A DNA stretch of 44,858 nucleotides from positions 1 to 44,858 of the IMG/VR virus record IMGVR_UViG_3300022745_000057; one strand, given 5' to 3'. A program made the position numbers and the translations under genes. Under the pieces are notes generated by a model, which did not search any database, was not told the DNA's origin, and worked only from the letters and a program-made list of their open reading frames with translations. The first letter of the stretch is position 1. Each line of letters opens with the position of its first letter. Positions 2,498 through 41,713 of this stretch are shown here, piece after piece. The DNA is from a virus.

Positions 2498-4852
2498 CTA
2501 TCCTCGCTGGGGGAAGGCCACGACCCTCCCGGATGATGCGACCTGGCGTGACACCGGGCCGTTCCTGAGCACCTCTGCTACCACGTTTGCGGGGTCTTTG
2601 AAAATATCCGGCGCGACACGCCCGATGACGCGCAAGGCGCGCATGCGCCCATCGATCCGGACGCGATCCGTATGACCCTTCGGCACCATGCGCGAGCGGC
2701 GCGTCAGCATGCGTTCGGCCATGCGCTGCCAGTCGTCGGGGACCTCGACGGCGTTCTCGGCCAGATAGTCCTCGATGCGCAAGATGATCTGCTCCTTGAC
2801 AACGAGCGTATCGGCGATGCCGTGCAGCGCCCAGGCAAAGGCGCGGTCCAGATCGGAGGCGCCGGCCTCGACCATCTCGGCCTTGGCGGCGGTCATAGGC
2901 GGCGCGATGTAGGGGTTGTAGGTGCTCAGATCCATCGCCCTGAGCGCCGCGACGAAGGCGCCGATATTGGCACGGTCGCGCCGCCAGGCGTGGAACTGCG
3001 CCCAGTATTCGGCGGGCATTGGCTGGCCGTTCTCGAGCACGGCAATGCGCCGGTCATTGGCGGGGATGACGAAGGCGTCGGCGTGGTTGGTGGCGATGAA
3101 GATCGAGGCGTAGGTTCTTTCGCGGGTGTTCTTGACGCCCTTGCGCTTGATATGGAGATTGCGCGTCGCGGGGTCGACGACCGTTTTCAGGTGCTCGTAG
3201 GCGTTGCTGCGCACCTGCCATGAGGTGAGGCCGCCGGTCGCTTCCTTGGCCTCGTCGACGACGACCAGCAGGCTGTTGCTCTGCCATTCATTGTACTGGC
3301 TTTGCGTGCCCTGCCCGACAAGCGTCGGAAAGTCGACGGGCGCGACATAGTCGTCACCGAAGATATCGGTCATCAGGGCGATCAGCGACCCGCGACCCGT
3401 GCCGTAGGAATCGCGGGCCACCATGATGACGGCGGGGCCCGGAACTTCCGGATGCTGGACCTTATAGGACAGCCACTGGAGAAAGAATTGCCGCTCTTCG
3501 GCGATCGGCAGGAGGTTGGCGATCATGGCCAGCCCGACGCTGGCGTCGCCGCCGGCGGCGAACTGCATCGGGCGGTAGGTGTTGACGTGCAGCACGCCGT
3601 TCTCGGTGTAGAGCGGTCCTGGCCGGTCGGGGCGCATCTGCATGGTCGCGGCGGTCAGGCGGCGATGATGCTCGCGCCAGAGATCGGACAGGCGCGTCAC
3701 GACGTCGCCGCCCTTGGGTCCTTGCTTGACCTCGCGGAAGGGCGCCAGCGTGTCGTGCAGCGCCCCCATCTTCTGCGTCAGGAAAGGCTGGCCCAGATCG
3801 CAGACAAGGCTGTCGTTCTCGACATAGACGTAGCGCTGCAACGCGATCGCCAGATTGGTGTCGAGCGGCCAGAGCGGGTCCATCCGCAAATCTTCGATCA
3901 CGACAGGTTCGGGCGCTTCGACTTCCGGAAATCGCTCAGCGAGCAGCGCGCCGAGCTTGGCGGTCGCGGCGTCGATGTCCTCATCCTTCATGAAGTGCGA
4001 TGTGTAGGTGCCGTGATCCGAGAGGCACAGATTGTCGTTGACGAGGCTGGCCATGCCCGCCCAGCTGCCGCCGGTCGGGCGCAGCGCGTCGACCTTGCAG
4101 CGCAGCACCTCGTCCTCCGGCGCGTGCCGCAGGGCGTCGATGATCTCGACGACGCTCATCTCGCCCATGTCCTGGACGTCGAAGACCATGTCGGGCGTCA
4201 GGTCGTAGACGTGGCTATAGCCGGCGTCCGTGCCGCCACCGGGGCTGCGGCGCTCAAGGCCGCGATCGGTGAAGAACGCCGTGCAGAAGTCGCGGATCGC
4301 GTCGACCTGCGCGCGGCTGATCTCGGGCAGATCCATATAGGACGCGTCGAGCAGCGATTTCTCCGGCCAGCTATAGGCCGTGTTCGCATCGCGCTGGCCG
4401 TAGGCGGCGAACTGACAGCCGGCGCCAAGGATCTCGACGGCGAAGCCCTTGTGGTCCTCGGCGGCGCCGGGGGGCATGAAGTGCCCTGTCGTGCGCTTGC
4501 CGATCTTTTCCGCCGTACGGTAGACCCACAATTCGCGCGGCGGCATGCCGACGCGGACAAAGGGCGACTCGGCGACGAGCCCTTCGGCGACGACAGCGTC
4601 GAGCAGATCGTTGAGCAAATCCTTGTCGTCAATGTCCCAATCGAGGGCCACCACGTCGCCGCAACGGATGCCGGTGTCGAGAAAGGATTTGGAGCGCGCC
4701 CATTCTTTCGACTGGATGATCTCGGGCGTGACCTCAAGCGTGCTCCACTCGCGGATCAGGCACATTTTCCGTTGGTTGGCGAGCGGCGTGAAGCCGTTGT
4801 GGTAGAGCTTCAGGCGCAGCGCCGTGCGGTCTTTGTGGGCGTCGATTGTCAT
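2498..4852 (-). CDS. Bifunctional primase-helicase (prim-pol / SF3 helicase)
   Basis: A 784-residue replication protein. The N-terminal part resembles archaeo-eukaryotic-type prim-pol primases, with a metal-binding acidic pair in ALDWDID (Asp71, Asp73) and a later GAGCQFAAYG segment. The C-terminal part is a superfamily 3 / P4-type helicase. Its Walker A-like loop is YGTGRGS at about residues 483-489, Walker B is LLVVVDEAKE, motif C is IFIATNHADAF near 594, and NDRR provides an Arg finger. It would synthesise primers and unwind the fork for the phage family A polymerase. It overlaps the methyltransferase gene upstream by ATGA and lies four bases before the endolysin, so replication and lysis genes share a transcript. 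Confidence 0.8.
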   Translation of the reverse strand: MTIDAHKDRTALRLKLYHNGFTPLANQRKMCLIREWSTLEVTPEIIQSKEWARSKSFLDTGIRCGDVVALDWDIDDKDLLNDLLDAVVAEGLVAESPFVRVGMPPRELWVYRTAEKIGKRTTGHFMPPGAAEDHKGFAVEILGAGCQFAAYGQRDANTAYSWPEKSLLDASYMDLPEISRAQVDAIRDFCTAFFTDRGLERRSPGGGTDAGYSHVYDLTPDMVFDVQDMGEMSVVEIIDALRHAPEDEVLRCKVDALRPTGGSWAGMASLVNDNLCLSDHGTYTSHFMKDEDIDAATAKLGALLAERFPEVEAPEPVVIEDLRMDPLWPLDTNLAIALQRYVYVENDSLVCDLGQPFLTQKMGALHDTLAPFREVKQGPKGGDVVTRLSDLWREHHRRLTAATMQMRPDRPGPLYTENGVLHVNTYRPMQFAAGGDASVGLAMIANLLPIAEERQFFLQWLSYKVQHPEVPGPAVIMVARDSYGTGRGSLIALMTDIFGDDYVAPVDFPTLVGQGTQSQYNEWQSNSLLVVVDEAKEATGGLTSWQVRSNAYEHLKTVVDPATRNLHIKRKGVKNTRERTYASIFIATNHADAFVIPANDRRIAVLENGQPMPAEYWAQFHAWRRDRANIGAFVAALRAMDLSTYNPYIAPPMTAAKAEMVEAGASDLDRAFAWALHGIADTLVVKEQIILRIEDYLAENAVEVPDDWQRMAERMLTRRSRMVPKGHTDRVRIDGRMRALRVIGRVAPDIFKDPANVVAEVLRNGPVSRQVASSGRVVAFPQRG

Positions 4853-5997
4853 TCGGCGGCCTGCATCTTCTCAGCCACACGCGATTCCGCCGCAGCGATC
4901 CGCGCGTCGGCGATGTCGAAATAGCCTGCGTCCATTTCGATCCCGATGAAATTGAAGCCTTCCAGCACGGCACCGCGTCCGGTACTACCGCTGCCCATGA
5001 ACGGGTCGAGCACCGTGCCGCCAGGCGGCGTGACAAGGCGGCACAGATAGCGCATGAGGTCGGTCGGTTTCACGGTGGGGTGCGTATTCTTGTAGGCGGT
5101 TGTGCGCCCTTCGCTGATGCTGGACGGCTTGCCGCTCGTGCCGTTGGCCGTCGCGAAGGTGACGACCGGCTTTTCTTTGGTCGTCATGCCGTCGTCGCGG
5201 TCAGCTTTGCTAGCCTTGGCGCAATAAAAATAGCGCGCGGCGGAACCGGTTGAACCTGCGTGGCCTTTTTCATCACGCAATTCGAATTTGCCGAAGGCGT
5301 TTTTGGTCTTCGGTTCATTCCGATGGCCGTTGAATGTTCCGACAGTAGTTACCGGGAACGCCTCAACGACCTCGTCGCTGCCGTCGTGGATGACGTTAGC
5401 AGGCCAGCGCCCAACCGGGTCATAGTTGTCTCGGTCTTTGTCGTATTTGCCAAAGACCTGATTGGTCATAGGGCCGCTACCGAAATCCGCGTGCTGGTTC
5501 TTCGTTTTGGCCTCTTGCTCATCGGCTTTTCCGGCGAACGACACACGGCATCCATCGATATTCAGCGCCCCGACGCCATACGCCGCGAGGTTCGCTGGCA
5601 CCGTGCCGATCAGCGGCTTGCGCGCCATGACAATCGGTTCATGCGCGGGCTTGAGGGCGGTGCCCCAGCCTTCCCAGTCACCGTCTTGGTTGGACGATTT
5701 CGGAAAGCCGCTGCCGTATATCCACATGATCTGGTCGCGGATTTCAAAGCCTGCGTCCTCGATGGCAACGGCCATGCGATGATAGGTTCGTGACCCGCCG
5801 AAGCTCAGCAAATGACCACCGGGCTTGAGCACGCGCAGGACTTCCCGCCAGATGTCGGCACCCGGAACATCATAGTCCCAATGCTTGCCCATGAAGGCGA
5901 GCCCGTAGGGCGGGTCGGCGACGACGCTATCGACGGAATTGTCCGCCAGCTCCTTGAGGACAACGCGGCAATCGCCCTCGATCAGTTCAACGGTCAT
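4849..5997 (-). CDS. DNA methyltransferase, beta-class N4-cytosine/N6-adenine
   Basis: A 382-residue amino-methyltransferase. Motif IV DPPY is at residues 28-31, near the N-terminus, and motif I is DPFMGSGSTG at 331-340, followed by GIEMD (motif II). This IV-then-I order is the beta class of S-adenosylmethionine-dependent DNA methyltransferases. RVLKPGGHLLSFGG is the usual strand after motif IV. The central region (about 120-300) would hold target recognition. No restriction endonuclease is adjacent, so it is best read as a solitary enzyme that protects phage DNA or alters host methylation. The start at 5997 follows the exact leader box GAAAGGAACC (6002-6011). Target sequence and base specificity cannot be read from the sequence. 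Confidence 0.85.
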   Translation of the reverse strand: MTVELIEGDCRVVLKELADNSVDSVVADPPYGLAFMGKHWDYDVPGADIWREVLRVLKPGGHLLSFGGSRTYHRMAVAIEDAGFEIRDQIMWIYGSGFPKSSNQDGDWEGWGTALKPAHEPIVMARKPLIGTVPANLAAYGVGALNIDGCRVSFAGKADEQEAKTKNQHADFGSGPMTNQVFGKYDKDRDNYDPVGRWPANVIHDGSDEVVEAFPVTTVGTFNGHRNEPKTKNAFGKFELRDEKGHAGSTGSAARYFYCAKASKADRDDGMTTKEKPVVTFATANGTSGKPSSISEGRTTAYKNTHPTVKPTDLMRYLCRLVTPPGGTVLDPFMGSGSTGRGAVLEGFNFIGIEMDAGYFDIADARIAAAESRVAEKMQAAE

Positions 5998-6039: not shown

Positions 6040-9000
6040 CTAGGCTGATTTGGTGTAGTACCAGGAGGTCGAGACTTCGGCCGCTAAAGGCAGTCCTTCG
6101 GTCCAATCCCAGCCCCTGACCATAGTTTCGTGCAGGCGTTCTGCAAAGGCCCCAGCGCTAGTCTCGTCGACCTCGCCGCCTACTTCATCATGTGTGTGGA
6201 GGACGATTTGGGCCTCTTTCTCCTCAACATCTAGCCGCACCAAGGTCTGGCGAAGAATCGACGCCGCCGTGGCCTGCGTGCAGTTGTGAACAAGGAACGG
6301 AACGCCGTCGCTATCAAACACCGTAAAGCGGTTGCGCGGGCCGCAGTTGAGCAGATCGTAGACTTTTACCGATACCGGTTGTCGTAGGCCGGGGGTAAGA
6401 ATAGCTCGCTCGTCGCCCAGCCGTGGTCCAGTCTGTAAAGCAGCGTCGTCACGCCTATCCCGCTCACTTCCGAGGCTTCGATTACCAGCATGCGGCCCTT
6501 CGGCGTGTCGACCATCCGGTTCTGTCGGGTGTTCCGCATCTGCTCGCGTCGAGTCGCCCAATAGCAGTTCGTCGGTTCGTAACTCCCGTGGTTGTTCGAC
6601 CGCTCGATCTGAAGCCCCGATCGATAGGTCGGGCCCATATCGGTCCAAAAGGTCTCGAACGATTGTAGCCACTGGGGGCAGACCGTGATCCCGCGCCCAC
6701 CGTAGTTCTTCCACGCCTGATGGGTTGGTAGGGTACAACGATCGACCATTGAGCGCCACACCGAGTATGCCGGATGTTGAGACATACCGTGGGAACGACG
6801 CGCGGCCGCTCGCAGCTCCTTGGTTCTGCAACCACAGTTTGTAGGCGACGGCTTTCGATTGCTCCTGAAGCCATCGGTAGGCACCTCCAATTCTCTCCCG
6901 CAAACGCAGCGCGCCCACCAAATGGCCTTTTTGCCGTGGCCCGCCGTCCGATCTGAAGGTTTCAGCATCGTTAGGAAGCCAAACGTCTGCCCGGTCATAT
7001 CGCGAACAATCTTCCGCTTTTTTCCAGCCATCTACGATCCTCACCAAGTGATCGGGGGTCAAACGAACACCCCACTTATCGATGACCGGCTGAATGCCTT
7101 TCAGGATTAGCTTGGAGTGCGGAACCCATTCAATACCGTCCCACAATAGGTCGGTCCCTTGAACCATGTCAAGGCGAACAATACCGCGCCTCGTAAGAAC
7201 CGGGGTATCGCCGGCCAAACAATTCTCAATCTGGAGCCCGTCCCACAGGTGCCGGTAGCCCATACCGTTCAGATAAGTTATCGCGTCCTGCATTTTACCG
7301 AACTTCTCCACTCGAGAAATCTTGGCTTTTGGATACACGATAGGTCGCCCATCTGGCAGGTACGCGACCAATGTCCCGCCCATCAGACCAGGTACAAACT
7401 GGTATTGGATACGCCCAGCTTTCAACATATCGCCGGGCTGGCGCATCGCCGAGAACGCGGCCTCTTCGCACTTCACGCCAAACCGCTTGTTCCAGCGGTT
7501 ACGGTCGCGCCAGCCGTCGACCCACGTCTTGGCTTCTTCGTTCGACAGCCGGATGCCGTAATTCTTGGCCATCGCCTTGAGCGCACCGACCGAGCCGCGG
7601 AAACCCAGCGACAGCACCATGACCTTACCGCCCTGGCGGTACGCCTTCGCTTCCGGGTCGCCGTTCATATAGCGCTCCCAGAGCACGTCCGGGTAGACCT
7701 TGAACACCTGCGCGGCGTTCAGCACGTAAACGTCCGGTTTGGTCTTGTCGACGTCGCTCTCACGGAACGGCACCAGTACCGCCTCCTCGGCGTCGCGCGT
7801 CGCGGCGAGCCACGGCGTCACGCGCGCCTCGATCGCGGACCAGTCGCCCCAGACCAGCAGCTTGCCCATCGGCGCGATAAAGGTCGGGCGGATCAGCTTG
7901 GCGAGGACAGACGACACCGGCCCGATCTCGCGCAGCTTCTCTATAGGTACGTTAGCTGCGACCAGATCAAGTACATCTAGCTCATTCTTCAAGTAATCAC
8001 GCGGCAAATTGTGTATCTGTGTTCCGCGGGAACTATAGCGCCCCGTTTGCCCCGCGCCGTTAAATACATACGAGCCAGTAAGTCTACCGTCTACACTTTG
8101 GTCGAGGATCTTCTGGAACTTCAACGCCGACGACGACCGGCCAAATTGAAGAACTTCGATCAGATCGATGACCTCGTCCGCCGGCGGCGTATCGCTCGTC
8201 TGGAATTCTTCCAGCAAACGCGTCATGATCGTCTTGTCGCCGGTGAGATTGGTGACGTACCCCTCGTCGTCGCGCTTCTTGACCATCAGTTCGGCGAGGT
8301 CGTCAGGCAGCCGATCGTAGACCCACTGGTTGATCTGGGCGGTGAAGCTCGGGCCGGCGATGGCGCCGCCAGTGATTTCCTTGACGCGCTCGACGACATA
8401 GGCGGCCTCCTCGACATGGTAGGTCGCCGCGCCGGCGCACACGTCGAGATCGGCGAGCATACCGCGGTCATTGATCTTCTCGGAGACCCAGTATTCCGCC
8501 CACTCCTGCGCGTCCAAGGGCCGCGTGCACTTCCACACGTCGCGCATCAATTCCGTATCCTGCACGGAATAGTCGAGATAGAGCGCCCAGGCGTCGATGG
8601 CCGTCTGCACGGCCTTCTCGCGTGAATAGCCCTTGGCCATCAGCGCCGCAATGTCGGCGGGCGCGCCGGGCAGCGGCTGGGCCGCGTCGGCGAAACGCTT
8701 CATGATCGCCTTGCCGCCAATGGTTTTGGTGCCGAGCCCCAGTGCCCGTCCGGCGAAATCGAGGCCGCCCGGAAGATTCGATGCCTGCGCTTGGGCCTGG
8801 TTGTCCAGGACACGCTCGAGCGGCAAATGCGGGAAACCATAGTCCGGCGTCGCGATCTGCTGCCATACATTTCGGTCAAACGCCGCGTTGTGTGCGACGA
8901 CATAGCCGTCGGGCTGTTCAAGATGCGCTCGGATGTCGTGCGGGGCCGGCCCGTGCGCGAACATCCGGTTGTAGACGTAGGCCCATACATCGACGTTCAG

Positions 9001-9162
9001 GTGGCGGCTGATGTCCGGGCACCAAAGCTTCACCGGCTCGTCATCGACGGCCCAGGACAGGAGCAGCGGTTGCGTGCTCGGGTCGAGCACGTATTTAAGC
9101 GTGCCGGTGACCGTCAGGTCGAGCGCCGAGCGCGTCTCCCAGTCGAAGAAGCAGAAGCTCAT
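6040..9162 (-). CDS. DNA polymerase I (family A) interrupted by an intein
   Basis: A 1040-residue precursor. The 3'-5' exonuclease domain shows DWETRS (Asp7, Glu9), HNAAFD (Asn92, Asp96) and DYSVQD (Tyr198, Asp202). The polymerase palm and fingers show motif A DWSAIEAR (Asp440), motif B (Arg509, Lys513 and LGFRG at 519-523) and motif C HTHDEV near the C-terminus. There is no 5' nuclease domain, as in many phage enzymes. An intein of 313 residues (648-960) sits between QIEN and CTQATAAS, inside the conserved element that contacts the primer-template; removal leaves a 727-residue enzyme. The start (9162) overlaps the upstream gene as ATGA. Activity depends on intein splicing. Confidence 0.9.
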   Translation of the reverse strand: MSFCFFDWETRSALDLTVTGTLKYVLDPSTQPLLLSWAVDDEPVKLWCPDISRHLNVDVWAYVYNRMFAHGPAPHDIRAHLEQPDGYVVAHNAAFDRNVWQQIATPDYGFPHLPLERVLDNQAQAQASNLPGGLDFAGRALGLGTKTIGGKAIMKRFADAAQPLPGAPADIAALMAKGYSREKAVQTAIDAWALYLDYSVQDTELMRDVWKCTRPLDAQEWAEYWVSEKINDRGMLADLDVCAGAATYHVEEAAYVVERVKEITGGAIAGPSFTAQINQWVYDRLPDDLAELMVKKRDDEGYVTNLTGDKTIMTRLLEEFQTSDTPPADEVIDLIEVLQFGRSSSALKFQKILDQSVDGRLTGSYVFNGAGQTGRYSSRGTQIHNLPRDYLKNELDVLDLVAANVPIEKLREIGPVSSVLAKLIRPTFIAPMGKLLVWGDWSAIEARVTPWLAATRDAEEAVLVPFRESDVDKTKPDVYVLNAAQVFKVYPDVLWERYMNGDPEAKAYRQGGKVMVLSLGFRGSVGALKAMAKNYGIRLSNEEAKTWVDGWRDRNRWNKRFGVKCEEAAFSAMRQPGDMLKAGRIQYQFVPGLMGGTLVAYLPDGRPIVYPKAKISRVEKFGKMQDAITYLNGMGYRHLWDGLQIENCLAGDTPVLTRRGIVRLDMVQGTDLLWDGIEWVPHSKLILKGIQPVIDKWGVRLTPDHLVRIVDGWKKAEDCSRYDRADVWLPNDAETFRSDGGPRQKGHLVGALRLRERIGGAYRWLQEQSKAVAYKLWLQNQGAASGRASFPRYVSTSGILGVALNGRSLYPTNPSGVEELRWARDHGLPPVATIVRDLLDRYGPDLSIGASDRAVEQPRELRTDELLLGDSTRADAEHPTEPDGRHAEGPHAGNRSLGSERDRRDDAALQTGPRLGDERAILTPGLRQPVSVKVYDLLNCGPRNRFTVFDSDGVPFLVHNCTQATAASILRQTLVRLDVEEKEAQIVLHTHDEVGGEVDETSAGAFAERLHETMVRGWDWTEGLPLAAEVSTSWYYTKSA
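6283..7221 (-). other. PolA intein (splicing element, residues 648-960)
   Basis: The intein begins with Cys in CLAGDTPV (block A) and has TPDH (block B) about 50 residues later. It ends with VYDLLNCGPRNRF (block F) and LVHN followed by an extein Cys (block G). All residues needed for standard Cys1 / Asn-terminal / Cys+1 splicing are present; the block F His is not obvious. Between blocks B and F the in-frame translation has no recognisable endonuclease and looks like a shadow of another frame (Arg, Asp and Gly rich). That DNA encodes an HNH protein in a different frame (6366-7031). The splicing parts alone total only about 90 residues. Confidence 0.85.
6366..7031 (-). CDS. HNH homing endonuclease nested out of frame in the polA intein
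   Basis: A 221-residue protein in a different frame from the polymerase on the same strand, lying wholly inside the intein. It shows an N-terminal Cys-rich element (CVCG, then CGC), the block YSVWRSMVDRC and the signature KNYGGRGITVC. SNNHGSYEPTNCYWAT follows, typical of a family of phage HNH endonucleases, and the C-terminus (MLVIEASEVSGIGVTTLLYRL) resembles NUMOD-type DNA-binding modules. The ATG at 7031 has GTGAGGA six bases upstream, formed by codons of intein block B. The TAA at 6366-6368 falls exactly at the start of block F. It fills the slot where an in-frame endonuclease domain normally sits. Confidence 0.75.
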   Translation of the reverse strand: MAGKKRKIVRDMTGQTFGFLTMLKPSDRTAGHGKKAIWWARCVCGRELEVPTDGFRSNRKPSPTNCGCRTKELRAAARRSHGMSQHPAYSVWRSMVDRCTLPTHQAWKNYGGRGITVCPQWLQSFETFWTDMGPTYRSGLQIERSNNHGSYEPTNCYWATRREQMRNTRQNRMVDTPKGRMLVIEASEVSGIGVTTLLYRLDHGWATSELFLPPAYDNRYR

Positions 9163-22919: not shown

Positions 22920-23437
22920 AGCATCAGGTCCTCATTGGGTTTGATCTTGCGCTGGCGCTTGGTCGGCGGCACGAAATAGCCGTCGGGCAGCCAGATGACG
23001 AGCCCGCCCTGCGGGCCGAACTGCGTCGGGGCGTAGGCGAAGTCGAGCGGCATGGCGGGCATGTATTTGCGCAGCCCGATGGTGCGCAGGCTGATCGTCA
23101 GGACGAACTGCTGCCGGGCGCGGTGGAGTTTGTAGCCGCGCGGGCCGTTGGCCGGCGGCGGGCGGATACGGACGAACAGCCCCGGCATGTTGAGGCGATG
23201 GAACGGCGCGACCTGGACGCGCAGATGATTGTAGCGCTCGGCATAGCGGTGCTTCGGCCAGAGCAGATGCCCGAACCAGACACGATCATGCATGGCGAGC
23301 AATTCATCGACAACCGCCCGGCCGAAGGTGATGTGCGCGTACCAGAATTTGATCCCGACGGCGTGCGTCGAGATGCGGATCGATTCGCTGGCCTGCTGCT
23401 GGCGCGGCGACAGTTTCCGCGGTGGCGTGGTCGTCAT
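22916..23437 (-). CDS. 173-aa hypothetical protein
   Basis: A 173-residue protein with many aromatic and His residues (GIKFWYAHITFGRA, VWFGHLLWPKHRYAERYNH) and several beta-like stretches (LFVRIRPPP, FVLTISLRTIGL, GLVIWLPDGYFVPP). It ends in KRQRKIKPNEDLML. It is probably a beta-rich domain. I do not recognise a family, and the mix of His and Asp does not form a known metal motif. It overlaps neighbours as ATGA; the GcrA-like gene is directly upstream. Confidence 0.55.
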   Translation of the reverse strand: MTTTPPRKLSPRQQQASESIRISTHAVGIKFWYAHITFGRAVVDELLAMHDRVWFGHLLWPKHRYAERYNHLRVQVAPFHRLNMPGLFVRIRPPPANGPRGYKLHRARQQFVLTISLRTIGLRKYMPAMPLDFAYAPTQFGPQGGLVIWLPDGYFVPPTKRQRKIKPNEDLML

Positions 23438-24006
23438 CTGGCGCGGGTCGGCTTGTGGGCCTTGGGCGGAAGCGGATAGTAGGCGATGGCGCAGTGCGCC
23501 GCGCAGTAGGGCTTGCCGTCCCGGACCGGTTCATTGCAGTAGGCCGCCGGGTCGCCGATCGGCCAGCGGCAGCCGTCGCGGTGGTCCTCGACGCGTACCG
23601 GCACGGATCCGGGCAGGGCTGTCCAGGCGCTCGCCGGTGGTTTGTAGAGGGCTTCCGGCGGCAAGGGCGGGCCGACGGGCAGCATGGCGGTCAACCCCTG
23701 GTGCGGCTTTGGGCGCATGGCGGCGGTCCTTTCGCGAATCGGCAGACGGGCGGGCTTTGGGCGGGGCAGCGGGCGTTTGGGCTTGGGCTTGGCTTTCCGG
23801 GCGGCATGGCCGCCGACAGCCGGGGCGAGGAAGGTAATCGGCTCGCCGCGGGCCCTGGCTCGGCTGGCGATGCCGGCAATGGCGCTGCGCGTCGTGCCAT
23901 GGCGCGCCGCGAGGGCGGCGTAGGATAGGCCCTCCGCCGCGCCGGCGCGCACGAGCGCGATCTTGCTGGCCATCGGCGTCTGGCGCCAGGTCGTCGGTTC
24001 GGTCAT
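23434..24006 (-). CDS. GcrA-like cell-cycle regulator
   Basis: A 190-residue protein with the two GcrA signatures. Residues 18-60 are a helix-turn-helix (LVRAGAAEGLSYAALAARHG, TTRSAIAGIASRARARG), comparable to the GcrA DNA-binding domain. Near the C-terminus is GCRWPIGDPAAYCNE followed by GKPYCAAHCAIAYYP, the GcrA Cys/His module that interacts with sigma factor. The middle is a Pro/Lys linker. In alphaproteobacteria GcrA activates genes whose promoters carry adenine-methylated GANTC sites. A phage version, together with phage methyltransferases, could redirect host RNA polymerase or phage promoters. It overlaps neighbours as ATGA. Confidence 0.8.
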   Translation of the reverse strand: MTEPTTWRQTPMASKIALVRAGAAEGLSYAALAARHGTTRSAIAGIASRARARGEPITFLAPAVGGHAARKAKPKPKRPLPRPKPARLPIRERTAAMRPKPHQGLTAMLPVGPPLPPEALYKPPASAWTALPGSVPVRVEDHRDGCRWPIGDPAAYCNEPVRDGKPYCAAHCAIAYYPLPPKAHKPTRAR

Positions 24007-26632: not shown

Positions 26633-27046
26633 TCAGCGGCGGGCGTCGAGGATCCCGAGGTTGATGGCGCGCCGGCGCTTCTGGCGGTGCTGGCGCTGGT
26701 AGGTGGCATAGTAGGACTGGCTGTAGGTCTCTTCCTGGGCGATCAGATTGTCGAGCTTGAGGTTCTGCGGGTCGCCATCGCGGAAGGTCAGGCGCCCGGT
26801 CGGCCACTCGCCGTAGTGCATCAGCCAGATGACGCGATGGATGAGATAGGTGCGGCCATTGATCGTCGCGGCGATGCGACGATCGGGGCGGATCGAACCG
26901 ACTTCATCGCCGGCGCGGACGCCGTGGCCGCGGTCGACACGCCAGGTCAGCAGCCCGGAACGCCCGTCGTAATGCATCAAATCGCGGGCGGTTGCAGCGG
27001 AAAGAACGGTCCGGACGAGGCTGTCGGAGCGCGGGCGGCGGGGCAT
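26633..27046 (-). CDS. Degenerate HNH endonuclease-like protein
   Basis: Start chosen at ATG 27046, with AAAAGG eight bases upstream. The 137-residue protein follows the plan of small HNH_3-type homing nucleases: HYDGRSGLLTWRVDRG, AGDEVGSI, TYLIHRVIWLMHYGEWPTG, then a turn and NLKLDNL. The His of IHR and the Asn of DNL remain. The position usually occupied by the catalytic His (of the form vdHidG) reads LTFRDGD, with Phe instead of His, so nuclease activity is doubtful. It may persist as a DNA-binding protein. It is the first gene after the promoter at 27084-27112 and next to the large palindrome. Confidence 0.65.
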   Translation of the reverse strand: MPRRPRSDSLVRTVLSAATARDLMHYDGRSGLLTWRVDRGHGVRAGDEVGSIRPDRRIAATINGRTYLIHRVIWLMHYGEWPTGRLTFRDGDPQNLKLDNLIAQEETYSQSYYATYQRQHRQKRRRAINLGILDARR

Positions 27047-27083
27047 GAGTCGGGCCTTTTCGTAATGATTACCGTGGGTTAGG

Positions 27084-27112
27084 CGTGTAGCAGATGCGGG
27101 CGGTTTTGTCAA
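27084..27112 (-). promoter_or_regulatory. Promoter of the leftward cluster 27046-22258
   Basis: On the minus strand TTGACA (complement of 27107-27112), 17 bases, then TACACG (complement of 27084-27089). The perfect -35 and the spacing match the other leftward promoters, while the -10 is weak. It begins at the left edge of the AT-rich intergenic region and lies 38 bases before the ATG at 27046. Confidence 0.5.
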
Positions 27113-27206
27113 ATGTTATGAACGGAGCGTATTGGAATGGCGTACTAGTAGAATTATTTTGCGTCTAGGGTCGTTTTTAGGCGGGTCGGCGAAAAGCTAT
27201 TCTAGT

Positions 27207-27512
27207 ACTTAACACAGTTGGGAACAACGTCGAAATTTTGTTTTGACAAGAAACCGCCCTAAACCACCGTGCAGGAACGGTTTTTTCATCGGTTGGTACC
27301 ACCAGTGGTTAAAAGCGTTAGGGGTACTAGAAATGGATATAGGTACGATAATTGACATAGTTTAGGTGCCGTAACTGTATATCCAGTTTCTATGACCCTA
27401 GAGGGTTTTAACCCTCGCTGGTACCGATCGACGAAAAACGACGACGCCACGGCGGTTTAGGTCCGAAACTGAACGGAACAAAATTTCGAAGTTGTTCCAC
27501 ATTGTGTTAAAA
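27207..27512. repeat. Imperfect palindrome of about 300 bp in an AT-rich gap
   Basis: The non-coding stretch 27113-27506 is markedly AT-richer than the rest. Its larger part is one long inverted repeat centred near 27359-27360. Segment 27221-27242 is inverted at 27477-27498 with 21 of 22 matches, GGTACC at 27295-27300 recurs at 27420-27425, and GGATATA at 27335-27341 recurs inverted at 27378-27384. By eye the outer 90 bases of each arm match at about 70 percent. The centre holds AATTGACATAG. A separate small dyad GAGGGTT-TT-AACCCTC lies at 27401-27416, and GTACTAG occurs three times in 27151-27332. Candidate roles are replication origin, transcriptional control region or structured RNA. Confidence 0.6.
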
Positions 27513-27749
27513 ATCGGGGTCGAGGAGATCGTCGAGGGGGTAATCGGCGGTTTCCGGGACGTCGGTGGCGGAAAGGAGGGCAGAAAGCAGGGCTGCGGCG
27601 CGGTCGTGAGCGCGGTCGTCGGGGTGGCGCGCCAGGCGGTCGGCGAGGCGCCGGGCCTTGCGCGCCAGCGCGGCGGAAGCGGGGAGCGTGGAGGCGAGGG
27701 ACAGCAGCAGGCCGGCGTCGGCGGTCGGGGTGAGGTGGTGGCGGTTCAT
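27507..27749 (-). CDS. 80-aa hypothetical protein
   Basis: The start at 27749 follows GAAAGGATCC (27755-27764, one mismatch to the leader box), which supports the gene. The 80-residue product is helical and Ala/Leu-rich (GLLLSLASTLPASAALARKA, RRLADRLARHPDDRAHDRAA) with an acidic end (YPLDDLLDPDF). No family is recognised. It is the last gene before the AT-rich palindrome region. Confidence 0.55.
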   Translation of the reverse strand: MNRHHLTPTADAGLLLSLASTLPASAALARKARRLADRLARHPDDRAHDRAAALLSALLSATDVPETADYPLDDLLDPDF

Positions 27750-28148: not shown

Positions 28149-28766
28149 TCAGGTGCGGGCCCAGACGGGGCGGTTTGTCAGGCCGTCGACCCGCGTCGGC
28201 ATCAAGACGCCAAAGGCGATATCGGATCCCAGCCCGATGAACGCCGGGCCACTGCGTGCACCATGGCGGAGCGCAATGAGCGGCACGCGGCCGTTGATGA
28301 TTTTCGCCGCTTCGCCGAACGTGGCGATATAGTCGGCGTTATAGGCCCCGATCGTCAGCGTCTCGGCGTCGGGTTTGTCGGTGTCGGTATCGCTCGGCAG
28401 GACGCGGCGCCAGTCCGGGAAATGCCCGTCAATCAGCGGATTGTCTTGGAAGGCGATTTGCGCGCCGGTCGCGTTCAGCACCCAGGCGCGCGCCGGGGTG
28501 TCGAGGCTCAGGCGGCGCGGCTCCGTTTCGCCCTTGCCGCGCTTCAAGGCGGTCAGCGCCGGCTTGTCGAGGTGCACGATTACAGCTGCATCGCAGGCGG
28601 CAGAAGCGTCATGGACGGCAATCAGGCGGTGGCCATCGGTGGCGACAAGCGTCGCGCCGCCGGCGGTGCACGGTTCGATGTAGACGCCCTGCAGGTAGGG
28701 ACGCGTTTCCTCGGTGGAAACGCAAAGATAGGCGGCGCGGAAGAGGTCGGCATTCACGGTAAACAT
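28149..28766 (-). CDS. DNA polymerase sliding clamp-like protein
   Basis: Start chosen at ATG 28766, since the exact leader box GAAAGGAACC (28772-28781) lies five bases upstream. The 205-residue protein shows blocks of the bacterial beta clamp: LFRAAYLCVSTEETRPYLQG, VYIEP, and ATLVATDGHRLIAVH, the most diagnostic motif. PLIDGHFPDWRRVLPSD and a final VLMPTR strand follow. It is shorter than host DnaN (about 370 residues), so it holds one to two clamp domains. Phage copies of this size are common and may assemble as a ring of more subunits. It would tether the family A polymerase. It forms its own unit flanked by hairpins. Confidence 0.7.
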   Translation of the reverse strand: MFTVNADLFRAAYLCVSTEETRPYLQGVYIEPCTAGGATLVATDGHRLIAVHDASAACDAAVIVHLDKPALTALKRGKGETEPRRLSLDTPARAWVLNATGAQIAFQDNPLIDGHFPDWRRVLPSDTDTDKPDAETLTIGAYNADYIATFGEAAKIINGRVPLIALRHGARSGPAFIGLGSDIAFGVLMPTRVDGLTNRPVWART

Positions 28767-28820
28767 GGTTCGGTTCCTTTCGGTGGAGGGTGGCGGCATT
28801 TCAGGCTGAGCGCCTGTCAG

Positions 28821-28842
28821 CGCCCCGGAACATGCCGGGGCG
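28821..28842 (-). other. Intergenic hairpin
   Basis: CGCCCCGG (28821-28828) is perfectly inverted at 28835-28842 with a six-base loop, in the gap between the 176-residue gene (stop at 28854) and the clamp-like gene. There is no T run. It belongs to a set of similar hairpins after single genes (28104-28130, 29430-29452). Confidence 0.5.
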
Positions 28843-28853
28843 CACATAGTGGC

Positions 28854-29735: not shown

Positions 29736-29805
29736 GTCAATTGGTTCCTTTCTGGTGTGAGGTAACGTCCTAAGCGAGTCGTTTGCCTGTCGTTACGTTG
29801 TCCCT

Positions 29806-29834
29806 TTTATCACTCTTTAGTTTCGATGTGTCAA
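29806..29834 (-). promoter_or_regulatory. Leftward promoter beside an inverted TTGACA pair
   Basis: On the minus strand TTGACA (complement of 29829-29834) is followed after 17 bases by GATAAA (complement of 29806-29811; four of six matches to TATAAT). An opposing TTGACA lies at 29843-29848, so the two -35 hexamers face away from each other eight bases apart. This forms a natural operator-like dyad between the leftward early gene and the rightward packaging module. Confidence 0.55.
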
Positions 29835-29884
29835 GCGGTCTTTTGACATAATTTCTTAAGCGCCAGCGATTGCCGGTAGCGGAG

Positions 29885-29925
29885 CGGCGCAAACCCAAGC
29901 GATGCAAAGGCTTGCGCCGGTTTTT
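29885..29925 (+). terminator. Terminator or attenuator upstream of the packaging genes
   Basis: CGGCGCAA (29885-29892) pairs with TTGCGCCG (29912-29919) and is followed by G and TTTTT on the plus strand. No gene precedes it on that strand, only the TTGACA at 29843-29848, so it would terminate a very short leader transcript. A second hairpin, GGTTGTGC (29926-29933) with GCACAACC (29946-29953), follows at once. Together they look like an attenuation device in front of the small terminase gene. Confidence 0.5.
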
Positions 29926-29983
29926 GGTTGTGCGGTAAGGATGGCGCACAACCCCAATATTACTCCATGTGAGGTCGTGCCGA

Positions 29984-32200: not shown

Positions 32201-32497
32201 GTGCCGATCCCCGATGACATCATCCAGAACGACTTCCTGCTCAACCTCGGCGATGACTTTATCGCCGTCGATCTCGCCGGCCATATCGTCGGCCGCGCCG
32301 CCACCCACGACGCGCTGCTGCGCGCCCACGCCGAGGGCAGCGTGAAGCTCTACAGCGCCACCGATTTCGCCGACGCGCCCGAAGAGCCGGCGCCCGTCGT
32401 CGAAGAGGAAACGCCCATCATCGCCGTTACCGATGACGTCGTCATCCCCGACGCCGATGCGCCGAAAAAGCCGCGGAAGAAGTCACCCGCCGCCTGA
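32201..32497 (+). CDS. 98-aa acidic hypothetical protein
   Basis: GTG start at 32201 with AGGAG nine bases upstream. The N-terminal half is folded-looking (DDIIQNDFLLNLGDDFIAVD, GRAATHDALLRAHAEGS). The C-terminal half is acidic and Pro-rich (DAPEEPAPVVEEETP) with a final basic patch (KKPRKKSPAA). Its TGA overlaps the large terminase ATG as TGATG. A role as terminase partner is possible from position only. Confidence 0.55.
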   Translation: MPIPDDIIQNDFLLNLGDDFIAVDLAGHIVGRAATHDALLRAHAEGSVKLYSATDFADAPEEPAPVVEEETPIIAVTDDVVIPDADAPKKPRKKSPAA

Positions 32498-35136
32498 TGA
32501 CGATCGCGCTCACCGAACACGAGCTGCAATTCGCCCTGCGCCATCTGGACCAGCTGAACCCGGCCCAGAAGACGCAGGTGCTGCAGCTGCTCGAGGAGCG
32601 CGACACGCTCGCCAAGTACGAGGACGCGCGCCAGCACTTCCTGTCGTTCGTGAAGATGGTCTGGCCCGACTTCATCCCCGGCGCGCATCACCAGATCATG
32701 GCGGAAGCCTTCGAAGATGTCGCGGCCGGGAAATGCAACCGGCTGATCATCAACCTTCCGCCGCGTCACTGCCTCGCGCTCGATACGCCGTTGCTGACGC
32801 CGACCGGTTGGACAACGATGGGCGAAGTTCAGCCCGGAGATTACGTCTATGGCGCCGACGGAAAACCGACGCGGGTCGTCGGAAAATCGGAAGTGCATGT
32901 CGGGCGGGCGTGCTACCGCGTCACCGCAAAAGACGGCACGAGCGTCGTCACGGATGACGGGCACCTATGGCGCGCGGCGATAGATCGGAAGCGCCCCGGC
33001 ATCTTCAAGCTTCGCACAACCGAGCAGTTGTTCCAACGCGAGCAGGGAACCTCCGAACATCGCAAGGCATGGATACCGGATTCGCCCCCGGTTGTTTTTG
33101 CGCCGGGTGCGCCGTTGCCGGTGGGGCCCTATACGCTCGGCATGTGGATCGGGAACGGGCATGCGTCGCAGGCGATCATAACGAACGACAGCCGTGACCT
33201 GGCGCCGGTTCGGGCCATCATTGAATCCGAAGGTTACACCACGACGGATCAGGCGACACGCCTGACCTTCGGCATTCTCGGGCTCAAGGTAAAACTGCGC
33301 GACCTCGGGGTGCTGGACAACAAGCATATCCCCGACGCATATATGCGCGCCTCGGTTGAGGATCGGCTACGGCTGCTGTACGGGCTGTTCGACTCGGACG
33401 GGTGCTGCTCGCGCGAGGGGCAGTGCGATATTTCGACCAGCGATCCGCATCTACGCGACCAGTACGAAGAGCTGTTGCGCAGTGTCGGTGTCCACCCACA
33501 CGTCTATGAACTTGAAGCCAAGATCGGTGACAAGAGCTACGGGCCTGCATGGCGGTTATATTTCTACGCTAAGGATTTCGGGCTGGCGCCGCGGAAACGC
33601 TCGCGTACACGGGCCAACACCAAGCCGGTCCGCCGCTACATCTCCGTGGCGGAGCATGAGTCGGTCCCGGTGCAGTGCATAGAAGTCGACCGCCCCGACG
33701 GGCTGTTCCTGGCCGGACGTGGGCTGCTCGTCACGCACAATACCAAGTCGGAACTCGCCAGCTGGCTCCTTCCGGCGTGGTTCCTCGGCAAGTTCCCGCG
33801 TAAGAAAATCATCCAGGCGTCGAATACCGAAGCGCTGGCCGCCGGCTTCGGTCGCCGCGTGCGAAACCTCATCGACGGCGAGGACATGAGCGACGGCAGC
33901 GACGATGCCGCGCGCAACGGCTTCAGCGCCTACCAGAGCATCTTCCCGAATGTCCGCCTCGCAGCCGACTCCAAGGCTGCCGCCGGGTGGCACACCAATA
34001 AGGGCGGCGAATATTTCGCCATCGGTGTCAACGGTAAGGTGACCGGCAAGGGCGGCGATATCGTCATCATCGACGACCCGCATTCCGAGCAGGAAGCCAA
34101 GCAGGCCGAGTCCAACCCGGCCATCTTCGACGACGTCTACGCGTGGTATAATTCCGGTCCGCGCCAGCGCCTCCAGCCCGGCGGGACGATCATCCTCGTG
34201 ATGACGCGCTGGTCCAAGCGCGACCTGACCGGGAAGGTGCTCGCCAAGCAGGCCGCCGAAAAGGACAACCCCGACACCGACAAGTGGCGCGTCATCAGCT
34301 TTCCGGCGCTGCTCGACGAGAACACGCCCGAAGAGCGCCCGACTTGGCCCGGCTTCTGGCCGTTGCCGACCTTGCGCGCGACGCGCAGCGTGCTGCCGGT
34401 CAGCAGCTGGAGCGCCCAATACCAGCAGAACCCGACCTCCGAAGGCGCGGCCATCCTCAAGCGCGAATATTGGCGCCGCTGGGGCGACGACGACAAGGAG
34501 AAATGCCCCGGTCCGCAGCACATCGCGGCGTGGCAGAACGGCGATCCGCCGGCCTGCGAGTACATCATCGGCAGCTGGGACTGCGCCGCGACGGCCAATG
34601 AGCGCAGTCACCCGAGCGCCTATACGCTATGGGGCGTGTTCAAGGCCGAGGATCCGACCAGCGGCAAGACGCTCAACCACATCATCCTGTTGCAGGCGTA
34701 CAAGGCGCGCATGGAGTTCCCCGAACTGAAGCGCACCGCCAAGCAGTTCTACGACGAGGACCGCCCTGACACGCTGCTCATCGAAAACAAGAGCGCCGGC
34801 ATGCAGTTGCTGCAGGAGTTCCGCAGCATGGGCATCCCGGCGGAGGGGTTTACCGGCTCGAGCCGCGGCAGCCGGGCGCTGTCCAACGACAAGATCGCCC
34901 GCGCCAACATGATTGCCGACGTGTTCGCTTCACGGTATGTGTGGTGCCCACCGACACGGTTTGCGGACGAAGTCATGGAACAGTGCGCGAGCTTCCCGGC
35001 TGGCGAAGAGGACGATCTGGTGGACTCGACCGTGCAGGCCATGCTGCGCTTCCGCGAGGGCGGCTTTGTCCGCACCGCCAATGACGAGGCCGAGGACAGC
35101 GCACCGCCGCGCTTCCGCCGCAAGAGGTACTATTGA
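32497..35136 (+). CDS. Terminase large subunit interrupted by an intein
   Basis: An 879-residue precursor. The N-terminal ATPase domain starts with FLSFVKMVWPDFIPGAHHQI and NRLIINLPPRH. After an intein of 324 residues (92-415) it continues TKSELASWLLPAWFLGKFPR, so the intein splits the Walker A region (PPRH/TKSE). Walker B is GGDIVIIDDPHSEQEA, followed by a coupling motif, GTIILVMTRWSKRDLTG. The C-terminal nuclease shows SWDCAAT, LLIENKSAG and EEDDLVDSTVQ with the expected Asp/Glu residues. The spliced protein would be 555 residues, normal for TerL. It drives ATP-powered DNA packaging and cuts the concatemer. Confidence 0.9.
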   Translation: MTIALTEHELQFALRHLDQLNPAQKTQVLQLLEERDTLAKYEDARQHFLSFVKMVWPDFIPGAHHQIMAEAFEDVAAGKCNRLIINLPPRHCLALDTPLLTPTGWTTMGEVQPGDYVYGADGKPTRVVGKSEVHVGRACYRVTAKDGTSVVTDDGHLWRAAIDRKRPGIFKLRTTEQLFQREQGTSEHRKAWIPDSPPVVFAPGAPLPVGPYTLGMWIGNGHASQAIITNDSRDLAPVRAIIESEGYTTTDQATRLTFGILGLKVKLRDLGVLDNKHIPDAYMRASVEDRLRLLYGLFDSDGCCSREGQCDISTSDPHLRDQYEELLRSVGVHPHVYELEAKIGDKSYGPAWRLYFYAKDFGLAPRKRSRTRANTKPVRRYISVAEHESVPVQCIEVDRPDGLFLAGRGLLVTHNTKSELASWLLPAWFLGKFPRKKIIQASNTEALAAGFGRRVRNLIDGEDMSDGSDDAARNGFSAYQSIFPNVRLAADSKAAAGWHTNKGGEYFAIGVNGKVTGKGGDIVIIDDPHSEQEAKQAESNPAIFDDVYAWYNSGPRQRLQPGGTIILVMTRWSKRDLTGKVLAKQAAEKDNPDTDKWRVISFPALLDENTPEERPTWPGFWPLPTLRATRSVLPVSSWSAQYQQNPTSEGAAILKREYWRRWGDDDKEKCPGPQHIAAWQNGDPPACEYIIGSWDCAATANERSHPSAYTLWGVFKAEDPTSGKTLNHIILLQAYKARMEFPELKRTAKQFYDEDRPDTLLIENKSAGMQLLQEFRSMGIPAEGFTGSSRGSRALSNDKIARANMIADVFASRYVWCPPTRFADEVMEQCASFPAGEEDDLVDSTVQAMLRFREGGFVRTANDEAEDSAPPRFRRKRYY
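32770..33741 (+). other. TerL intein with LAGLIDADG endonuclease
   Basis: The intein begins CLALDTPLLTPTGW (block A), has a TDDGH block B, and ends RGLLVTHN before extein Thr416, giving Cys1, terminal His-Asn and Thr+1 for splicing. An in-frame LAGLIDADG endonuclease domain lies in the middle: YTLGMWIGNGHA (about 212-223) and LLYGLFDSDGCC (about 293-304). In the first motif the catalytic Asp of the usual GDG is Asn (codon AAC); the second keeps its Asp. It therefore probably splices but cuts poorly or not at all. It is unrelated in endonuclease type to the polA intein. Confidence 0.85.
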
Positions 35137-41524: not shown

Positions 41525-41566
41525 CAAGTTGATATTCCTAGCTTTTCAGCTAGGGGTTATGACGGG

Positions 41567-41595
41567 AAAACCGCGCTTCGGCGCGGTTTTCTTTT
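41567..41595 (+). terminator. Terminator after the major capsid gene
   Basis: AAAACCGCGC (41567-41576), TTCG loop, perfect complement to 41590, then CTTTT. A smaller hairpin, CCTAGC-TTTTCA-GCTAGG (41537-41554), comes just before it. Together they end the capsid transcript strongly. Confidence 0.85.
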
Positions 41596-41644
41596 GCGTG
41601 GTCCCCCGTGTAAAAGTCGCCTAATGTAACAAATAAAATTCGTG

Positions 41645-41673
41645 TTGACCGCGCCACCCAGAATGTGTAAGGC
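41645..41673 (+). promoter_or_regulatory. Promoter of the endonuclease VII-like cassette
   Basis: TTGACC (41645-41650), 17 bases, then TAAGGC (41668-41673). It resembles the early leftward promoter (TTGACA-N17-TAAAGG). It lies between the capsid terminator and the gene at 41714, giving that gene independent transcription. Confidence 0.5.
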
Positions 41674-41713
41674 TCTTAGCTGTCATAACCCTCTGAGCTA
41701 GGAGAAACACAGA

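Follow-up and report, generated by a model that had tools for sequence, protein, structure and literature searches.

Hairpins processed by RNase III occur in the polycistronic mRNAs of phages, as at the early sites of T7 and in lambda, and double-stranded RNA in bacteria, being an RNase III substrate, can also trigger defense systems. To our knowledge, few phage RNAs with the shape of a long double-stranded rod have been described. At the DNA level, the tos site of N15 spans ~300 bp and has nested inverted repeats. MITEs are AT-rich, are located in AT-rich intergenic DNA and give rise to stable stem-loop transcripts, while the cabRNA of staphylococcal phages, 400 nt in length, is transcribed from terminase genes and contains several hairpins (PMC10969869; PMC10686824).

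The locus described here, an imperfect palindrome of about 300 bp, lies in a 44,858-bp virus record (IMG/VR IMGVR_UViG_3300022745_000057), the whole of which we refer to as the window. It resembles the RNase III hairpins of T7 and lambda in standing between genes of one transcription direction, but its predicted hairpin is several times longer. With MITE and ERIC-type imperfect palindromes (PMC10969869) it shares AT-richness, an intergenic location, ends that are the best conserved part and a possible TTAA duplication, yet it is present in single copy, is borne by a phage and has no relatives in the collections searched. Likened by description only to cabRNA (PMC10686824), it would be a phage-derived structured RNA of similar length with double-stranded stretches; it occupies a different genomic position, and the several hairpins and the origin from a terminase gene belong to cabRNA.

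Symmetry and Composition of the Palindrome

Positions 27209-27510 (302 bp) form a single full-length imperfect inverted repeat, in which the left arm (27209-27359) aligns to the reverse complement of the right arm (27360-27510) over 104 matching columns of 148, with no more than three small gaps inside an alignment of ~150 columns. The identity of about 70% that the sequence-only reading had given for the outer arms therefore extends to the whole palindrome, center included. Symmetry is tightest at the ends, as in the terminal inverted repeats of MITEs and fold-back elements (30 of the 34 outermost columns match), and loosest at the center (27342-27377). Paired positions sum to 54719 as first proposed, apart from a shift of one nucleotide, to 54720, for 27282-27333 with 27387-27438. 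The finer details of that reading were likewise reproduced: 27221-27242 pairs with 27477-27498 at 21 of 22 positions, 27335-27341 is complementary to 27378-27384 (7/7), a dyad stands at 27401-27416 (GAGGGTT-TT-AACCCTC), and GTACTAG is found three times, twice as such (27142 and 27324) and once in reverse complement (27202-27208). Dinucleotide-shuffled controls, which had been named as one possible refutation, fall far short of the best ungapped arm score (33, against a mean of 9.8 and a maximum of 15; n = 500). Along the full ungapped diagonal, 83 of 151 pairs match, compared with 38.3±5.4 in shuffles (maximum 57, n = 2000), and the runner-up inverted repeat elsewhere in the window scores 16. 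The palindrome is real, and its coordinates and symmetry are confirmed.

The mismatches between the arms comprise 26 transversions and 18 transitions, unlike what plain neutral decay would predict, and are mildly clustered (runs z -2.5). No gene fits in the palindrome, as had been claimed, and it is without coding capacity. Divergent coding copies can be ruled out as its origin, since the arms have no matching ORFs and their mismatches show no three-base rhythm (21/26/21). Palindromes of similar appearance elsewhere have their own explanations: that in L029 and its near-identical relatives consists of two divergent paralogous HTH repressor-like genes, and that in L048 is accounted for by a pentapeptide-repeat gene. 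Comparison of the arms with the rest of the phage, in search of an antisense target, gave nothing beyond short chance words.

The G+C content of 27209-27510 is 44%, against 63% genome-wide. The AT-rich stretch described in the sequence-only reading is thus evident, although its left bound lies further left, at 27047 rather than 27113: it begins at the start codon of an HNH endonuclease gene, and the left flank (27047-27208) has 48% G+C. Nor is it quite the only AT-rich non-coding region, other gaps being AT-richer than the genome as well, but shorter (29736-29968, 50%; 41525-41713, 48%). CTAG reaches 12.6 per kb in the palindrome region compared with 0.4 per kb in the genome (a count of 5, against 0.8±0.8 in shuffles), and three of the five sites are located in the left flank, which ties flank and palindrome together. 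TTAA, rare in this phage (0.29 per kb), terminates the repeat at both ends and is readable as a 4-bp target duplication, yet the word is self-complementary and the reading ambiguous. No more than four TTAA occur in the region, at 27209, 27309, 27408 and 27507, with spacings of 100, 99 and 99 bp; the symmetry in part forces this evenness, which is otherwise probably due to chance.

Gene Neighborhood

The window encodes a phage lysozyme, a primase, a family-A polymerase, an N6/N4 methyltransferase, a terminase and a portal protein, together with a GcrA-like protein, indicative of a host among the alphaproteobacteria. The palindrome is held by the largest gene-free gap of the phage (27047-27506), which is also the single large gap of a leftward gene cluster extending from 29.7 to 24.6 kb. 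To its left follows an HNH_3 endonuclease gene of 137 aa (26633-27046, minus strand), and to its right lies an 80-aa ORF without known relatives or function (27507-27749, minus strand), whose stop codon falls inside the right end of the palindrome. A gene resembling the DNA polymerase III beta subunit (sliding clamp; 28149-28847, minus strand) stands upstream in the same cluster, 0.6 kb from the AT-rich gap, while primase and polymerase are 18-25 kb distant. A perfect -35-like hexamer read from the sequence, TTGACA, faces the HNH gene (27108-27113, minus strand), but the hexamer 17 nt beyond it in the -10 position is a poor one (TACACG); in a promoter scan no candidate passed, this one included, and no convincing terminator was found.

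Predicted RNA Folding

As the sequence-only reading had recommended, the predicted RNA fold was compared with shuffled sequence, and on neither strand was any shuffle as good: the plus strand gives -134.8 kcal/mol (z -10.2) and the minus strand -120.5 kcal/mol (z -9.1). The predicted shape is one essentially unbranched rod with short internal loops and ~115 base pairs on the plus strand or 108 on the minus strand. Among 300-nt windows of the phage and 13 related loci, the palindrome is the strongest folding outlier for its G+C content. A weak, possible smaller hairpin flanks it at 27129-27208 and folds on the plus strand only (z -2.5 vs +0.1). When arms were simulated with the same mismatches placed at random, the real arrangement showed no gain in stability (z +0.3 on the plus strand); stability equal to that of random placement at the same identity gives no sign of selection on the pairing itself. 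The mismatches show no significant bias toward G-U (11, against 7 A-C), and Rfam covariance models matched no family, the best hit (E = 3) lying below the gathering score, so that membership of an Rfam-listed RNA family was rejected.

Search for Relatives and Repeated Sites

No sequence relative of the palindrome was found in phages, plasmids or related phage records, nor any copy in ~1,180 draws of pseudomonadote genomes, in which weak matches (E ~0.003-0.007) are at chance level for 385 genomes. The several copies expected of a MITE or fold-back element are thus lacking from these collections, the palindrome being single copy. A search for motifs shared by the arms, in IMG/VR viral contigs and in GTDB contigs (in the latter with a single exact motif), was equally negative, and no described match was found in the literature. 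Syntenic relatives were sought through the terminase, the clamp, the polymerase and the small neighboring proteins. The closest phages obtained, L003/L004 (terminase 70%) and L051 (polymerase 72%), are fragments that end short of the palindrome, and the syntenic site is covered by none of the relatives.

Repetition of 6-12-nt words in the gap does not exceed that in dinucleotide shuffles, and an iteron array was rejected on this ground. Applied to other phages, the same test recovered CGTGACA 13 times in a gap of Rhizobium phage 16-3, and TGGCACA 7 times in a non-coding gap of phage 023Pt_psg01 that lies close to the gene for the small terminase subunit (L047:13512-14007). The former (L045:36251-36607, corresponding to NC_011103 56250-56606) is an AT-rich gap without annotated features that follows a DNA polymerase/primase gene, and its 13 CGTGACA copies and strong folding suggest that it is likely an iteron origin. 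It is like the gap studied here in being AT-rich, non-coding, strongly folding and near replication genes in an alphaproteobacterial phage, but differs in its motif copies, which occur in both orientations, there being no repeated motif in the gap of the window.

Interpretation of the Palindrome

Our tentative preference, held at somewhat less than even probability, is that the palindrome is transcribed and yields a long hairpin RNA in the HNH gene's leader or spacer. The region would be transcribed either within the leftward transcript or as a separate rightward RNA. In the leftward case, a spacer hairpin between the 80-aa ORF and the HNH gene could be cut by RNase III or could block decay, and would so separate expression of the HNH gene from that of the preceding genes; this is the simplest version, given that every flanking gene is read leftward and that the hairpin begins at a stop codon. 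An RNA is favored by the rod-like fold, by the stop codon just before it and by the absence of repeated sites, and of the options put forward in the sequence-only reading a long structured RNA best fits the geometry, with further support from the folding scores of both strands, the location in the largest gap of the leftward cluster, the lack of coding capacity and the CTAG enrichment. The reading is weakened by the missing Rfam match, by the want of a convincing promoter or terminator, by the insignificant G-U excess and by a stability equal to that of random mismatches; moreover, RNase III sites of the T7 type are far shorter than a spacer hairpin of 300 nt. Transcription of the palindrome would give the phage an RNA of ~300 nt, most of it double-stranded. 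It appears unlikely that the palindrome stands for a novel family of phage RNA, long and rod-shaped and with no relative in Rfam or any collection searched, which would be produced in the course of infection and would act in its own right, whether by serving as a dsRNA-like decoy or regulator or by controlling the HNH endonuclease.

After a hairpin RNA we rank a decaying fold-back insertion, and after that an origin or control site at the DNA level. The insertion, a MITE-like fold-back element or an old inverted duplication decaying in the gap with no function for the phage beyond mobility, is rather doubtful but would be an example of such an element inside a compact phage genome. It would account for the well-kept terminal columns, for a repeat that halts exactly at a rare TTAA on both sides and for a mismatch pattern that folds no better than random decay, and MITEs share its AT-rich intergenic setting and give stable stem-loop transcripts (PMC10969869). 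However, we detected one copy only, the self-complementary TTAA makes the duplication ambiguous, AT-richness and CTAG reach 160 bp past the left end, and the excess of transversions is unlike ordinary decay. An element acting as DNA, either an origin of replication or a control site recognized in double-stranded form, seems improbable. The AT-rich gap does lie close to the sliding-clamp gene, and phage 16-3 has its own AT-rich, strongly folding gap after a polymerase/primase gene; but the absence of a repeated short motif argues against an iteron origin, which would carry a recurring initiator-binding motif, and against the control region with mirrored operators offered in the sequence-only reading. 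The GC skew, suggested there as a sign of an origin, keeps rising through the palindrome and reverses near 30 kb, at the point from which transcription diverges. The distance to primase and polymerase also tells against an origin, and a cruciform would be unlikely at a 70% match. The length and nested inverted repeats recall, as a lead, the N15 tos site, but a protelomerase (telomere resolution) site as in N15-type linear prophages is extremely improbable and was rejected: hairpin ends require a palindrome that is perfect at its center, whereas here the center is the least symmetric part, and among the proteins scanned, covering part of the ORFs, there was no protelomerase or integrase.

Further Features of the Phage

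The GcrA-like cell-cycle regulator gene is located at 23434-24006. GANTC sites number 63 in 45 kb, estimated at well under half of the base-composition expectation, and the C-terminal part of the methyltransferase (4849-5997) resembles CcrM. The large terminase (32497-35136) contains an insertion of ~310 residues (about 105-411) that is absent from all relatives. The LAGLIDADG_3 domain located there (291-348), together with a weak match to an intein model, makes it a probable intein. The DNA polymerase (6040-9162) has ~318 extra residues near 660-950, the same protein being covered in 721 codons in the relative L051, and the methyltransferase has extra residues at about 70-299; judging from these sequences, they are probably two more inteins in the same phage. 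In the gap 41525-41713, after the major head protein gene, a strong GC-rich hairpin is followed by T-rich sequence, likely a terminator, and the same gap contains three CTAG sites.
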